Part shown: positions 25,637 to 40,959 of the stretch, in pieces | Layout: each line of letters starts with the position of its first letter | Numbering within the stretch: position 1 is the first letter of the stretch | Assembly: GCA_022821725.1 (NCBI GenBank) | Contig: JAJEDB010000147.1 | Location: 1 to 64,000, forward strand | DNA length: 64,000 nt | Direction: 5' to 3' | Origin: Candidatus Poribacteria bacterium | GTDB taxonomy: Bacteria; Poribacteria; WGA-4E; WGA-3G | Notes under the pieces: model-generated | Told to the model about the DNA's origin: nothing | The model's database searches: none | Seen by the model: the letters and a program-made list of their open reading frames with translations, nothing else | Program-made: the position numbers and the translations under genes

Positions 25637-26078
25637 TGACTTTCTCCTTCTCTACGGAATATTAATCTCGGGTGTCTCCGGCGTTATATTGTTCGTTGGG
25701 TTCAGCATACATTTCATATATTGGATTGTCAACTTAAATTTCTCGTGTGTTTTCCCCCGGAAAAATGCTAAAAACGTAAAGCAATATCTTTGTTAATTCC
25801 TTCCAATCCAAACTTTTAACAAAATATTTACACATCGTTTGCGATTTCATGTGTTCTGGCGTAGCGGATTGACATCGGTTGAAATTTGGAGTATAATAGT
25901 TTGTATAAGTTAGCCAAAGAGAGCGGCATATTGAAATAAGGAGACCTATCCATATAGCTACAATGAAGGGGCAGATACGGTTCTGAGAAGGTTATGTCCA
26001 ATTTACGGATTCGTGACCGCTATGATCGCACCTAAGGACAACATCCGCCAATAAACGTCTACATATTTAGGGGGAGTG
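25637..26078. other. 442-nt divergent intergenic region
   Basis: Lies between the leftward esterase and the rightward phosphodiesterase. It contains the consensus promoter at 25869-25897 and an AT-rich stretch. I see no gene, RNA or repeat in the rest. Confidence 0.6.
25869..25897 (+). promoter_or_regulatory. consensus sigma-70 promoter
   Basis: TTGACA (25869-25874), 17-nt spacer, TATAAT (25892-25897): a perfect match at both boxes. It points at the phosphodiesterase gene, leaving a leader of about 175 nt. Confidence 0.75.
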
Positions 26079-35284: not shown

Positions 35285-35908
35285 ATGAATATACAAAAGG
35301 CATACGACACCTGGTCATCAACTTATGATTCGGATGAGAACCGCACCCGAGATTTAGATCAGAGTGTTACCCAAAAAACGCTGGCAAATTCATGCTATAA
35401 ATCAATCCTTGAGATCGGCTGTGGAACTGGAAAGAATACTCGCTTTCTCTCACAAGTCGGTGAGATCGTTCACGCGATCGACTTCTCAGAAGACATGATT
35501 TCTCTCGCCAGAGAGAAGTTGAAATCCAACAATGTTACGTTCACTCTTGCCGACCTTACCCGTCCATGGCACTGTGATACTGCGTCTATAGATCTTGTCG
35601 TCTGTAACCTCGTCCTTGAGCATATAGAAAACCTTACATTCATATTCTCAGAAGCATTCCGGGTATTGACCGATGGGGGGCATTTCTTTGTCTGTGAACT
35701 TCACCCATTTAGGCAATATCAAGGGACGCAGGCAAACTTCCAAACGACTCATGGAACAATGGAAATTCAAGCGTTTGTGCATCACATATCCGATTTCCTC
35801 GACGCTGCCAAAAGCAGTGAATTCCGCCTTGAGGAATTCAAGGAATGGTGGCACGAAACAGACCAAAACAAACCTCCGAGACTTGCGTCGTTTATGTTCA
35901 AAAAATAA
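35285..35908 (+). CDS. class I SAM-dependent methyltransferase
   Basis: 207 residues. ILEIGCGTGKNTRFL is motif I for S-adenosylmethionine. VHAIDFSEDMISLARE gives the acidic ribose-binding position. FTLADLTRPW and IDLVVCNLVLEHIEN are motifs II and III of the UbiE/Methyltransf_11 type. There are no membrane segments. No convincing Shine-Dalgarno precedes the ATG. The acceptor substrate is unknown. It is separated from the TetR gene by about 190 nt containing that gene's own promoter, so it is probably an independent unit. Confidence 0.85.
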   Translation: MNIQKAYDTWSSTYDSDENRTRDLDQSVTQKTLANSCYKSILEIGCGTGKNTRFLSQVGEIVHAIDFSEDMISLAREKLKSNNVTFTLADLTRPWHCDTASIDLVVCNLVLEHIENLTFIFSEAFRVLTDGGHFFVCELHPFRQYQGTQANFQTTHGTMEIQAFVHHISDFLDAAKSSEFRLEEFKEWWHETDQNKPPRLASFMFKK

Positions 35909-36024: not shown

Positions 36025-36053
36025 TTGACAAAGAGAAAAACGTGTGATATAAT
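36025..36053 (+). promoter_or_regulatory. consensus sigma-70 promoter of tetR-like gene
   Basis: TTGACA (36025-36030), 17-nt spacer, TATAAT (36048-36053): perfect in both boxes. The -10 box runs into the palindromic operator at 36052-36070, so a bound regulator would block polymerase. Confidence 0.8.
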
Positions 36054-36070
36054 ATTAACACTGTAAAGTT
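36052..36070. promoter_or_regulatory. TetR-type operator, copy 1 (autoregulation)
   Basis: ATATTAACACTGTAAAGTT, centred on C36061, with core ACA-C-TGT. It matches the two downstream copies at TTAACACTGTAAA (13 of 13 identical). Confidence 0.7.
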
Positions 36071-36099
36071 AGATAACTCTGTCAATAAAGGTTAGAGCA

Positions 36100-36705
36100 A
36101 TGGGCACCAAAGAACGCAGGGCAAGAGAAAAGGAACAACTGCGACAGCAAATTCTCGTTGCAGCACGTGAGTTGTTTGTCAATGAAGGCTATGAGAACAT
36201 CTCCATGCGGAAGATTGCCAACAAGATTGAATACTCTCCGACAACGATCTATCTCTACTTCAAAGACAAGGCGGATCTTTTAGATTCCGTTTGTCAGGAA
36301 ACACTCCTGAACCTGTTGAACACGCTGGAGCAGCTAAAAAGAGATGAGAGCGATCCGGTTGAAGCACTGAGAAAAAGTGGACGAACCTATGTCGAATTCG
36401 GTCTCAAATATCCGCAGGATTACAAACTCACCTTTGTTATCCGACCCCAGTTCCAGAAAGGATTAGGACTGGAGGAAGGATCCGTTGGTGAAAAGGTGTT
36501 CAATTATTTACGTGAAATGGTTTCTGAGTGCGTCCAGCAGAAGAGATTCCGTCAGATGGATGTCGAAACCACCGGTCAGGTGCTGTGGTCAGCGGTTCAT
36601 GGGGTCACACTGCTCCTGATTGATTTCCCGGACTTCCCTTGGACCGAGAAAGACGAATTGATAGACACAGTAATTCACACGACAATCGAGGGGTTGAAGG
36701 CATAG
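36100..36705 (+). CDS. TetR/AcrR family transcriptional regulator
   Basis: 201 residues. The N-terminal helix-turn-helix is at about 17-62: ILVAARELFVNEGYENISMRKIANKIEYSPTTIYLYFKDKADLL, a textbook TetR DNA-binding domain. The C-terminal half is the helical ligand and dimer domain, with WSAVHGVTLLLIDF near the end matching the 'WHG' type of TetR C-domains. AAGG lies upstream of the ATG. Its promoter is overlapped by a 19-bp palindrome repeated before the two FG-GAP genes, so it very likely represses itself and them. The inducer is unknown. Confidence 0.88.
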   Translation: MGTKERRAREKEQLRQQILVAARELFVNEGYENISMRKIANKIEYSPTTIYLYFKDKADLLDSVCQETLLNLLNTLEQLKRDESDPVEALRKSGRTYVEFGLKYPQDYKLTFVIRPQFQKGLGLEEGSVGEKVFNYLREMVSECVQQKRFRQMDVETTGQVLWSAVHGVTLLLIDFPDFPWTEKDELIDTVIHTTIEGLKA

Positions 36706-36749
36706 GTTTAAAACTGTTTGGCAAAGGGTGCCTATATTTTTTTATCTAT

Positions 36750-36768
36750 AAGTTAACACTGTAAACTT
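36750..36768. promoter_or_regulatory. TetR-type operator, copy 2
   Basis: AAGTTAACACTGTAAACTT, centred on C36759: an almost perfect 19-bp palindrome (arms AAGTTnACA and TGTnAACTT). A TATAAG -10-like box (36747-36752) overlaps it with nearly the same geometry as at copy 1. Confidence 0.75.
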
Positions 36769-36813
36769 ATTTACCCATGTTAATATATCCGCAAACTTGA
36801 AAGGAACATAAAA

Positions 36814-38457
36814 ATGAAAAAGCGAAGCCTATTCTCAATACTAACCCTTGGGGTCCTGCTATCTGGATACCTCGGCCTGTTTGGCGAGGAAGTTGAGCAG
36901 ACACCGCCTGCCTCTGTGGAATTCACTTTCGATCAGTATGAGATCGTTATTGGCTCCACGAAACGCCAGACCGTTCTGATGGGGTTTCTCCTCGGCAGTG
37001 CTATCGCGGAAATTGCCGTGGCGCACATCGACGAAAATGATAATCGGCACTTGCGCATCTACGCGTTTGACGACAACACCTGGGCACCCAAATTCGACAC
37101 AACGCTACGTCCAGAAGTATTGTTTGTCGATGTCGCAAATATCGGTGGTCGTGATCGATTAATCACATATGGAAACGGTCACCTGAGCTGGTTCGATCCA
37201 AACTCACAGACGGAACGCTTGCTGGTGTCGGTTACTTCCAACTTCACGCCACCTCGTAAGGACGAAATTCCCCATGTAGACGTTACTCGAGACGTGAATG
37301 CTGACGGCCGCGATGACTTGGTAGTGCCTGGTTCCGATGGCTTCTATGTGTTCATCCAGATGAGCGACGGCACGTTCGCTGATCCGGTGAAACTCGGTCC
37401 GCTCACTGAGATGGAGAGGATCCTCGGTGCCGACGGATATCGATACGATCCGTGGTCTCAGAGCCGTATCTATGAGATCGACTATGACAGAGATGGACGC
37501 GTCGACCTGGCGTTCTGGAACGAAGACCATTTCGAGGTTCATCTCCAAGACAAGCGCGAGCTGTTTACACCGAAAGCCATAACCTTCACAACCGACGTAA
37601 CGTTTGACTCGGACCGGCTCGCCTCACTGACCACCGGGAACATGACCGGAAAGGTGTTGCACTCGTTGGCAGATCTGAACGGCGACGGTATCGGGGACTT
37701 GGTCGTTTTCAGGCTTTCGGGCAGAAACATCTCCAGTAAGCACTCCGGTTACGAGGTGCATTTCGGCGCGCCGACACCCGATGGCACTACTTTCGCGCGA
37801 AGTGCTGACATCACATTCCGGGCGGACGAGAGAATCCAGCTTGCAATGAACCGGCACGACTTCAATTGTGATGGTCAGGTTGACCTAATGATTACGACCA
37901 TCCATACCGAGCACCTCAACGGAAGCCTCTGGAAGCGCATCAAGGGGTTCATGGGGGATGACATCGGGCTGAGACTGGAGTTCTACCAAATGGAAAAGGG
38001 TCGCTATCCCGACACATCCAACACGACTCGTAGCATCGCGTTGGACGGCGTACCCAGCCATCGCGAACCGGGATGGCTGCCGCTGGGTGTCGTCCTTCGA
38101 GGCGCGACACACGAGAGCCGGAATACTCAAAAAGGTTACCCGCGCGCCTTCAACACAACCTTGCGCATCGGAGATGTGACAGGTGATGGACTCTCGGATC
38201 TGCTTATCTCGGATCATCCCCGTATCATGCTCGTCTTCGTCGGCGTATCGGGACCAGAAATATTCGCTCGGCAGCCTCAGAGGGTGGCAGTTGCGCTTCC
38301 CAACGACGAAGAATACACCCGGCTGGTGGACCTCAACAAGGACGGGGTCCAGGATATCCTCATGCATCATCCATTCACGCTACGGGATGCTCACGGAGCC
38401 CCGAAACTACCTCCGGGAACTGAACCGCATCGTGTGACGATGCTGGTGGCGCGATAG
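36814..38457 (+). CDS. FG-GAP-like repeat exported protein, paralog A
   Basis: 547 residues, of unknown function, with a propeller built from FG-GAP-like blades. The calcium loops are DVNADGRDDLV, DYDRDGRVDLA, DLNGDGIGDLV, DFNCDGQVDLM, DVTGDGLSDLL and DLNKDGVQDIL. The N-terminus is a signal peptide of the same design as paralog B, but the lipobox reads LLSGY: Tyr19 (TAC) replaces the Cys (TGC) kept in paralog B, so it is probably not lipidated. The two proteins align over nearly full length. AAGGAA precedes the ATG. A TetR operator lies at -64 to -46 from the ATG. A surface or secreted location is likely. Confidence 0.8.
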   Translation: MKKRSLFSILTLGVLLSGYLGLFGEEVEQTPPASVEFTFDQYEIVIGSTKRQTVLMGFLLGSAIAEIAVAHIDENDNRHLRIYAFDDNTWAPKFDTTLRPEVLFVDVANIGGRDRLITYGNGHLSWFDPNSQTERLLVSVTSNFTPPRKDEIPHVDVTRDVNADGRDDLVVPGSDGFYVFIQMSDGTFADPVKLGPLTEMERILGADGYRYDPWSQSRIYEIDYDRDGRVDLAFWNEDHFEVHLQDKRELFTPKAITFTTDVTFDSDRLASLTTGNMTGKVLHSLADLNGDGIGDLVVFRLSGRNISSKHSGYEVHFGAPTPDGTTFARSADITFRADERIQLAMNRHDFNCDGQVDLMITTIHTEHLNGSLWKRIKGFMGDDIGLRLEFYQMEKGRYPDTSNTTRSIALDGVPSHREPGWLPLGVVLRGATHESRNTQKGYPRAFNTTLRIGDVTGDGLSDLLISDHPRIMLVFVGVSGPEIFARQPQRVAVALPNDEEYTRLVDLNKDGVQDILMHHPFTLRDAHGAPKLPPGTEPHRVTMLVAR

Positions 38458-38463
38458 ACCCAC

Positions 38464-38498
38464 AGACGAAAAATAATGACACGCTCAATTTTTCGTCT
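38464..38498. repeat. 11-bp inverted repeat containing a copy of a downstream gene's start
   Basis: AGACGAAAAAT (38464-38474) pairs perfectly with ATTTTTCGTCT (38488-38498) around a 13-nt loop. The stretch AATGACACGCTCAATTTTT (38475-38493) is identical to the start of the barrel-like gene at 40259-40277. It may act as a terminator-like hairpin after paralog A. Confidence 0.6.
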
Positions 38499-38500
38499 AT

Positions 38501-38519
38501 AAGTTAACACTGTAAATTT
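38501..38519. promoter_or_regulatory. TetR-type operator, copy 3
   Basis: AAGTTAACACTGTAAATTT, centred on C38510. The surrounding 40-45 nt (TCTATAAG before, TTATTTA and ATGTTAATA after) also match copy 2, so the whole promoter block was duplicated. Confidence 0.72.
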
Positions 38520-38558
38520 ATTTATCTATGTTAATAAGAAAGTCGAGAGGAGGATCAA

Positions 38559-40241
38559 ATGAAAAAGCGAAACCCATCCCATAAACTCTTTTTTATCGCA
38601 AAACCGAGATCGGCAGCTAAACACACAAGGTATCCGCAACGGAGCCTATGCTTCGTGCTGGTTTTTGGCATATTGCTATCGGGATGCTCAGGTCTACTGG
38701 GTAAAAAGGACATCACGATGGTGCCTGCTCCTGTGGAAATTACTTTCGACCAGTATGAGGTCGTCACTGGTTTTATAAAGCATCAAACCGTTGTGATCGG
38801 ATTTTTCCTCGGCGGCTCCATCGCGGAACTTGCTGTGATTAGCGTCGATGAGAACAGGGATCGGCACTTGGGGATCTATGCGTTCGGCGATGTTACCTGG
38901 GCACCAAGACTTGACATGCCGCTGCGTTCTCAAGTGCTGTTCATTGATGTCGCGAATATCGGTGGACGCGATCGCTTAATAACGTACGAACGAGGGCGCC
39001 TGAACTGGATAGATCCCGAATCGAGAACGGAACATGTCCTTGTTGAAGTCACTACGAACTACAACGCAGCAGGCGATCGGGGTATCCCGCATGTCGACAT
39101 CACTCGGGACGTAAACAGTGATGGTCTCGACGACTTGGTAGTGCCGGATCTGGATGGTTTCTGGATAGCGATGCAAGTGAACAACGGCTCATTCACCGAT
39201 CCCATAAAACTCGGACCGTCCGAACCCTTTCTCGACGAGATTGCCTTGGACAATACACACAGTTACCGCGAGGTCGGAATAACTGCCTTGACTGTTCCGT
39301 GGTATCTCAGCCGTGTTCATCAAATGGACTATGACCAGGATGGACGCAGCGATCTTGTGTTCTGGAACGAAGACCATTTCGAGGTTTATTACCAAGATGC
39401 TAATGGAATGTTTTCCACAGTGGCAGACACTTTCACTGTTGACTTCCCATTTGACACTGATGGGATCTACTCGATCGCCTTCGGATTCAGCGGCGAGCGC
39501 GCGTTTTCGCTCGTCTTTGGATTCAGAGAGAGCACGACTCTAAGGGTGTTGCACTCGTTCCGCGACATGAATGACGACGGTGTCGCCGACATGGTCATCC
39601 TCTCATTGGAAGGCCGGAGTCTACTGAGCCAGCGCAGCCTATACGAGGTGCATTCCGGCACGCCAACGTCCGACGGCATCTTGTTCACACCAGAGGTTAG
39701 CACAGCGATCCAACCGCAAGGAAAAGCGGGGGGATTGCTGCACTCTGGATATTCGTCCGTGTGGTTGCAAGATTTTGATGGAGATGGCCAAATCGACATG
39801 ATGTTCAGAGACGTGAATATTGGTGTTGCGGGGATGATGCGTGCGCTCCTCGGCAATTCCGTTATGATGGATGTTGAGTTCTATCGACTCGACAACGGTA
39901 TATACCTTGACAAGCCGACTACCACGCATAAAATCAGACCTGATATCAATCCATTTGACAAACAAAACATATTTTTCTCTCCGGTCCTCATGGGAGATGT
40001 GAATGGAGACAGACGCTTGGATCTGCTGGTCGGGAAGAGCCGAGATGAACTGCAAGTCTTTATCGGTGTCCCGGGACCAGAACTGTTAGCACGGCAGCCC
40101 AAAAAGATCGCGGTCACTTTGCCTATGGACGAACGGAATACCCGATTGGTAGACCTCAATAAGGACAGTAAACAAGACATCCTCATGTATCATCCGTCTA
40201 CTACTGATGCACACCGAGTGACACTATTGATCGCTCAATAA
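38559..40241 (+). CDS. FG-GAP-like repeat lipoprotein, paralog B
   Basis: 560 residues, paralog of the gene before it. It has a long basic n-region, then FGILLSGCSG with lipobox Cys43, so it is a predicted lipoprotein. The repeats carry loops DVNSDGLDDLV, DYDQDGRSDLV, DMNDDGVADMV, DFDGDGQIDMM, DVNGDRRLDLL and DLNKDSKQDIL. Conserved blocks shared with paralog A include ANIGGRDRLITY, FWNEDHFEV and GPELLARQPKK. GAGAGGAGG precedes the ATG. The barrel-like gene follows after 18 nt, in the same TetR-controlled unit. Function unknown. Confidence 0.82.
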   Translation: MKKRNPSHKLFFIAKPRSAAKHTRYPQRSLCFVLVFGILLSGCSGLLGKKDITMVPAPVEITFDQYEVVTGFIKHQTVVIGFFLGGSIAELAVISVDENRDRHLGIYAFGDVTWAPRLDMPLRSQVLFIDVANIGGRDRLITYERGRLNWIDPESRTEHVLVEVTTNYNAAGDRGIPHVDITRDVNSDGLDDLVVPDLDGFWIAMQVNNGSFTDPIKLGPSEPFLDEIALDNTHSYREVGITALTVPWYLSRVHQMDYDQDGRSDLVFWNEDHFEVYYQDANGMFSTVADTFTVDFPFDTDGIYSIAFGFSGERAFSLVFGFRESTTLRVLHSFRDMNDDGVADMVILSLEGRSLLSQRSLYEVHSGTPTSDGILFTPEVSTAIQPQGKAGGLLHSGYSSVWLQDFDGDGQIDMMFRDVNIGVAGMMRALLGNSVMMDVEFYRLDNGIYLDKPTTTHKIRPDINPFDKQNIFFSPVLMGDVNGDRRLDLLVGKSRDELQVFIGVPGPELLARQPKKIAVTLPMDERNTRLVDLNKDSKQDILMYHPSTTDAHRVTLLIAQ

Positions 40242-40259
40242 ACAAAAAGGAGAAAGACA

Positions 40260-40811
40260 ATGACACGCTCAATTTTTTGCACAATTTGTATCCTTATCGG
40301 ATTACCCCTCAGTTTCTCGGTTCAGGCGCATGCCGCTGATCCTAACAAAAATAGTGTAAGGCAAGACAAATTCCTCACGGATGACTCGGAATTTGGTATC
40401 GGACTTCAGGGAGCCACCTCTGAATTTGGAGGAATTAGTGTTCGCTATACCGGGCTTGCACCCGTATATCTTCAAACCGTTGGACGTTTTATTCTCAACG
40501 ACCAGAATAGCGATCACATGTTAGGGGGCGGCGTTTCCTACGCTATATTTGAGCACCACGGTAGGTGGCATACATCACGCCTCTATTTCACCTTAGAAGG
40601 GGGCTGGCGATACAATAAAGAACGGGAACTCCTTACCACTACATTAGGCGGCGGACTCGCTTTTGGGGGCGAGCTTGTGTTCTCACTCGGCGGCATCCCG
40701 CTCGGTTTGAATGTAGCTGTTGGTCAAGGATTTGGGAGAGAAACATCCGACTCGCAATCCAAAGGTATCGCTGGTGTTTACGTAGGAATGGGTATACATG
40801 CCTATTTTTAG
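40260..40811 (+). CDS. small outer-membrane barrel-like protein
   Basis: 183 residues. A signal peptide ends AHAA (about 25). The mature part is rich in Gly and in alternating amphipathic strands (FGIGLQGATSEFGGISVRYTG, TSRLYFTLEGGWRYNK, TTLGGGLAFGGELVFSL) and ends in Phe (GMGIHAYF), as in eight-stranded OmpA/OmpW-like barrels. Not assigned to a named family. AAGGAG lies before the ATG. It is transcribed with paralog B and followed by a strong terminator, so it ends the TetR-controlled transcript. It may display or anchor the FG-GAP lipoprotein (inference from adjacency). Confidence 0.65.
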   Translation: MTRSIFCTICILIGLPLSFSVQAHAADPNKNSVRQDKFLTDDSEFGIGLQGATSEFGGISVRYTGLAPVYLQTVGRFILNDQNSDHMLGGGVSYAIFEHHGRWHTSRLYFTLEGGWRYNKERELLTTTLGGGLAFGGELVFSLGGIPLGLNVAVGQGFGRETSDSQSKGIAGVYVGMGIHAYF

Positions 40812-40845
40812 TAGAGTCATTCGATTTTCTTCACTCAGACCCGGT

Positions 40846-40869
40846 AGGAGCGGTTTCCTAACCGCTCCT
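40846..40869 (+). terminator. intrinsic terminator
   Basis: AGGAGCGGTT (40846-40855), loop TCCT, AACCGCTCCT (40860-40869): a perfect 10-bp GC-rich stem, followed shortly by TTTTTC and TATTTTTATT. It ends the FG-GAP/barrel transcript. Confidence 0.8.
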
Positions 40870-40959
40870 GCTCCTTTTTCTATTTTTATTTATCCCTCTG
40901 AATCCTCCTGATCAGGTGGACTCCAAAGGGAAATGCGTAAGCTCTCAGGTAAAAAACAT

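Follow-up and report, generated by a model that had tools for sequence, protein, structure and literature searches.

We propose that a TetR-family regulator encoded in a 64,000-nucleotide stretch of Candidatus Poribacteria DNA (the window) very probably acts as an autorepressor on paired operators, governs a surface regulon of four promoters, and is released by a ligand. The promoters under its control would be those of its own gene (tetR), of FG-GAP gene 1 and of the operon of FG-GAP gene 2 and a barrel gene, all located in the window, and that of a deacetylase gene on another contig (C15). The original prediction of a single TetR in control of its own gene, the FG-GAP paralogs and the barrel gene finds support, as a reading of the sequence, in phylogenetic footprinting, by the specificity of the site across the genome, by its co-occurrence with the regulator, by the presence of a sole full-length TetR, and by the operator of distant homologs. 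The regulon had been considered complete in the window, but it is not: three of its sites are located there, and the fourth paired site and its deacetylase gene lie outside it.

Paired operators in the window

The promoter of tetR (36025-36053, forward strand) consists of TTGACA (36025-36030), a 17-bp spacer and TATAAT (36048-36053). It matches the consensus in 12 of 12 positions, carries a TG in front of the -10 box, and is conserved upstream of tetR orthologs. A scan of the window located this perfect promoter and three exact copies of the 13-mer TTAACACTGTAAA, all on the forward strand, as described before: 36055-36067 (tetR operator 1, with the ortholog consensus TTAACASTGTTAA), 36753-36765 (operator 1 of FG-GAP gene 1) and 38504-38516 (operator 1 of FG-GAP gene 2). 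With up to two mismatches allowed, no further copy is present in the window. The 19-mer AAGTTAACACTGTAAACTT at 36750-36768, said to be palindromic save three positions, differs from its own reverse complement at positions 6, 10 and 14, an asymmetry that amounts to one mispair (6/14) and the unavoidable odd centre. Another perfect TTGACA-17-TATAAT is found at 25869-25897 of the window, without an operator, about 180 bp 5' of an ORF at 26076.

Phylogenetic footprinting over about 40 relatives, comprising the sites upstream of tetR and before the first FG-GAP gene, defines the operator core as TTAACA-S-TGTTAA. The full palindrome is found in most relatives, and the A-for-T in the genome studied here is the variant. 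A weaker second copy, with its centre exactly 18 bp downstream, accompanies the core at every site; the operator, previously taken to be a single 13-mer, consists of two sites at a distance of 18 bp, of which the second copies had been missed. The pair aligns over 34 columns without gaps in 58 ortholog sites. In operator 2 the right arm is near-invariant and the left arm weaker, and the ortholog second copy reads WTNACTATGTAAA at tetR and TTATCTATGTTAA at the FG-GAP genes. In the window, operator 2 follows on the forward strand at 36073-36085 for tetR (ATAACTCTGTCAA, exactly 18 bp 3' of operator 1), and 18 bp downstream of operator 1 at 36771-36783 for FG-GAP gene 1 (TTACCCATGTTAA) and at 38522-38534 for FG-GAP gene 2 (TTATCTATGTTAA). 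The tetR pair matches the profile of the operator pair over positions 36054-36087, gapless in the ortholog alignment.

The -10-like boxes noted earlier near both FG-GAP cores are present as TATAAG at 36747-36752 and 38498-38503 (forward strand), each touching the operator of its gene, and they come without a -35. In ortholog FG-GAP genes, the hexamer directly 5' of the operator is the best -10 of the region (TATAAC/TATAAG, mean 4.17/6), and neither the orthologs nor the window have a -35 at the right distance, so the FG-GAP start sites are uncertain. Behind tetR, a small hairpin with a T-tract (GGCA-AAGGG-TGCC followed by TATATTTTTTT; 36720-36743, forward strand) is likely an intrinsic terminator, weak in this genome, where a consensus terminator scan did not call it. 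The stem is better in many orthologs, where the arms have changed yet still pair (e.g. TTTGGCGAAAGCCAAA). The conserved hairpin and T-tract between the genes, with compensating changes in orthologs, suggest that tetR and FG-GAP gene 1 are separate units.

Repression is the natural reading of this layout, because a protein bound at a site abutting the -10 box would block the polymerase, and we consider it the most likely direction of control. If TetR instead were an activator or dual regulator at the FG-GAP and barrel promoters, and a repressor at its own, the conserved -10-like box without a -35 would be accounted for, and some TetR-family proteins do activate, for example AtrA (PMC3511530), while FasR is annotated as an activator. 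However, activator sites usually lie upstream of the promoter, whereas the FG-GAP operator is located downstream of the -10-like box and touches it, which is the blocking position also found at tetR. We therefore regard activation as improbable.

The operator pair in distant homologs

The nearest sequence relatives of the Poribacterial TetR outside Poribacteria are Firmicutes homologs, with 26-42% overall identity. Helices 2-3 are 74-87% identical between the two groups, and the sensor domain 17-33%. The motif AACA-N-TGTT precedes the homolog's own gene in Clostridium, Sedimentibacter, Bacillus, Caloranaerobacter and others, and a core at +18 bp scores on average 5.71/8, compared to 2.41 +/- 0.33 in shuffles; loci L129 and L144 deviate from the +18 spacing. 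Kangiellaceae homologs, in which helix 3 is different, do not have the site. Since the TetR and the operator are what the Poribacteria and Firmicutes groups share, TetR would be by far the likeliest binder of the paired site.

In several Firmicutes the TetR gene adjoins genes for Flavodoxin_5 and FMN_bind proteins (loci L129-L136 and L147). Two Clostridium loci (L129, 6835-6879, and L130, 7409-7453) have an extra paired core behind tetR, directly before the gene for the FMN-binding protein, a layout as in Poribacteria. A Clostridiales locus (L143, 1486-1584) carries core-like repeats with an 18-bp period 5' of the tetR homolog; three adjacent repeats are strong, and more can be seen by eye.

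The second block could also be read as part of a promoter, with TTAACA from the left arm of operator 1 serving as -35, a 17-bp spacer, and TATGTT or TATGTA as -10. The best such combination, TTAACA-17-TATGTT at FG-GAP gene 2, matches 9 of 12 positions, and conservation of the block extends to both promoter types. Against this stand the Firmicutes homologs, where the block at +18 fits AACA-N-TGTT (5-7 of 8 in most) and not a -10, and where the several repeats of L143 keep the 18-bp period. In one relative (L034), moreover, a start from that -10 would land inside the Shine-Dalgarno sequence, and upstream of tetR a perfect promoter is already in place. A promoter function of the block thus appears unlikely, and we retain the assignment as a second operator.

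Genome-wide distribution and a probable fourth target

In the genome studied here, the degenerate core pattern TTAACASTGTWAA has four matches, as many as the reversed control pattern. We dropped the 13-mer count as evidence, since it equals this control. The concern that the 13-mer might be common at random positions is borne out to the extent that its count is no higher than that of the control, but all copies are at gene starts. That the site is non-random follows from this position of every copy, from the second copy 18 bp further on and from conservation, not from the count.

A 34-column profile of the operator pair (R1), run over the whole genome (4.97 Mb), returned only four strong sites: FG-GAP gene 2 (E=1.9e-8, the best match in the genome), FG-GAP gene 1 (1.9e-7), tetR (2.2e-7) and C15:26497 (7.2e-7). 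The next independent match has E = 1.5 and is noise. The search for further copies, proposed with the original prediction, thus adds one paired site, which follows a further perfect TTGACA-17-TATAAT and precedes a polysaccharide deacetylase gene by about 20 nt. The product belongs to Polysacc_deac_1 (CE4/NodB; PF01522, E=4.3e-34), with deacetylase activity as a prediction from the family, and by inspection has a hydrophobic segment at the N terminus.

This promoter and operator pair precede the deacetylase gene in G000, G009, G023 and G030; the gene is located within the tetR operon in G021, G024 and G035, and in G031 and G011 it stands behind the operator and the decayed start of a tetR. Its membership in the regulon is not universal, because the gene of G026 and G034 has no such operator. 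The operator is absent from all four copies of a deacetylase paralog that were checked. Control of the deacetylase gene likely arose when the tetR promoter was copied and the tetR behind this copy disappeared. The module occurs a second time in G024 (L082, 8389-8571), G031 (L081, 3676-3897) and G035 (L083, 7391), with an intact promoter and paired operator followed by a truncated or remnant tetR start. Exact cores away from these loci in G043, G012, G019 and G002, and one of two in G009 (L057, L058, L062, L061, L065, L063), were taken as chance occurrences, because the second site is missing and no module gene adjoins.

We compared the presence of site and regulator in 60 relatives, with a threshold of E < 1e-3 for the paired-site profile. 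Orthologs of tetR, 84-100% identical across the order, are present in 40 of them. The paired site was found in all 40 of these genomes and was absent from 18 of the 20 others. One exception (G014) has a contig that begins just after tetR, and the other (G044) contains at most a possible tetR scrap, a ten-residue match. Fisher's test for this co-occurrence gives 2e-13, a value inflated by relatedness, and 0.005 if restricted to the 14 members of the order that are more distant. The presence pattern of the barrel gene matches that of tetR and the paired site. A methyltransferase gene 5' of tetR (35285-35905) is intact in the window and fragmented in several relatives (L015, L017, L024, L045).

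It is very improbable that the site represents a repeat or a mobile element spread by gene duplication and not the target of a regulator: the loci have indeed been duplicated repeatedly, as a barrel remnant between the FG-GAP genes and tetR pseudogene copies show, but half of the site columns are near 2 bits although the FG-GAP proteins are down to 42% identical, complete genomes have only 2-4 strong sites each, all at the same place before genes, copies at random positions are absent, and the sites are lost together with tetR.

The regulator, its predicted targets and known TetR systems

The putative binder of the operator pairs is a protein of 201 amino acids (36100-36705, forward strand) with an N-terminal TetR_N domain (PF00440, E=2.4e-14, 53.3 bits, cut-off 24) and a TetR_C_33 domain (PF13305, E=9e-9, above the cut-off). 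No other full-length match to TetR_N was found in the genome. An AF2 model (pLDDT 92) has nine helices in a TetR fold, with Foldseek TM scores of up to 0.79 to TetR-family structures. The palindromic operator TTAACASTGTTAA at its own promoter, conserved after the -10 box, agrees with membership in the family. None of the named subfamilies (FadR, BetI, AcrR, RutR and others) was matched at the NCBIfam equivalog cut-off; the best score was 50.5 bits for Bacillus-type FadR, against a cut-off of 200. We abandoned the assignment of a ligand from structure, because the nearest folds (EthR2, FadR, Rv0078 and PfmR) are only 16-24% identical and too far.

FG-GAP protein 1 (36814-38457, forward strand; 547 amino acids; PF13517, E=3.6e-15) has a signal-like N terminus in which LSGY replaces the lipobox, and is therefore probably not lipidated. 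FG-GAP lipoprotein 2 (38559-40241, forward strand; 560 amino acids; PF13517, E=8.4e-19) has the lipobox LSGC, which is likewise found in many relatives. The replacement of the lipobox cysteine (LLSGY; 36814-36870 in the window) is also seen in L008, L009, L010, L016, L023 and L066. A small protein of 183 amino acids resembling outer-membrane beta-barrels is encoded 18 bp after FG-GAP gene 2 (40260-40811, forward strand). It has no Pfam match; its AF2 model contains a signal helix and eight strands (pLDDT about 85 in the barrel), and matches to OmpX-type folds are weak (best E=1.7e-3). An intrinsic terminator with a 13-bp stem and a 4-nt loop (40843-40877, forward strand) closes the operon. Between the FG-GAP genes, 19 nt (38475-38493, forward strand) are identical to 40259-40277 and form a remnant of a barrel-gene start, which suggests a tandem duplication of the FG-GAP/barrel unit and subsequent loss of the first barrel gene. 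Next to the figures for tetR, identity among relatives is about 72-96% for the barrel protein and about 42-92% for the FG-GAP proteins (to either window copy). The lipobox of FG-GAP 2, the barrel prediction, the hydrophobic segment of the deacetylase and these conservation figures make a role of the products in the envelope or at the surface likely. That the module faces the host is our guess.

Taken together, we hypothesize that one TetR dimer would bind TTAACA-S-TGTTAA, abutting or overlapping the -10 box, and a second dimer the weaker copy with its centre 18 bp further on, an arrangement that would block RNA polymerase at the start site. At this distance the two dimers would sit on different sides of the helix, without a need for contact. 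A small molecule binding to the C-terminal domain would free the operator of the repressor and turn on the FG-GAP beta-propeller lipoproteins, the outer-membrane barrel and the membrane-anchored sugar-polymer deacetylase.

Such a switch would resemble the TetR/tetO paradigm of TetR-family autorepressors (PMC3511530) in having a TetR_N domain, a ligand domain made of alpha helices, a palindrome as operator both at its own promoter and at adjacent targets, and two operators per control region. It differs in that the predicted Poribacterial targets are surface or envelope proteins and not an efflux pump or enzyme, and are co-directional rather than divergent, with one of them unlinked. FhtR from Enterococcus faecalis also has two short palindromes in one promoter and forms two shifted complexes; either palindrome is enough for repression, and both together tighten it (PMC7858072). 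By analogy with FhtR, the Poribacterial pair, where repression is our interpretation, would probably give less leakage and a sharper response. In contrast to the Poribacterial TetR, FhtR recognizes TTATCAATCGATAA / TTATCGATTGATAA, binds heme as ligand, and controls the heme exporter hrtBA. Heme sensing was not adopted from this analogy, which was considered for the paired palindromes only, the FhtR operator being unrelated. The dimers of QacR overlap on one site, unlike the Poribacterial 13-mers, which are two full sites with centres separated by 18 bp and no need for contact. An arrangement with two dimers per control region is nevertheless established in the family, as QacR is cited to bind one operator cooperatively with two dimers (in PMC8053128). 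The uncharacterised Firmicutes TetRs beside Flavodoxin_5/FMN_bind share both the operator core and the 18-bp pairing with the Poribacterial protein, but their neighbouring, probable target genes are different and the sensor domain has strongly diverged. The openly searchable literature yielded neither the operator string nor a TetR/FG-GAP regulon of Poribacteria.

The switch itself would be of an ordinary type; the point of interest is an operator code that appears common to different phyla with different neighbours. We tentatively speculate that this TetR subfamily kept its code, two AACA-N-TGTT palindromes at a distance of exactly 18 bp, from a time before its Firmicutes and Poribacteria branches separated or by transfer between them, while sensor and targets were exchanged (flavodoxin and FMN-binding proteins in Clostridia; FG-GAP lipoprotein, barrel and deacetylase in Poribacteria), and that in Poribacteria, where it would be the cell's only TetR switch, it may set the presentation of the symbiont to the sponge. 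Through their predicted common control, the FG-GAP, barrel and deacetylase proteins likely have a common function at the cell surface. From sequence alone, the analysis provides a defined 34-bp operator and a putative regulon of four promoters in a sponge-associated phylum that is uncultured, and points to a case in which the DNA code of a regulator was kept unchanged between phyla while changes affected the sensor and, probably, the targets.
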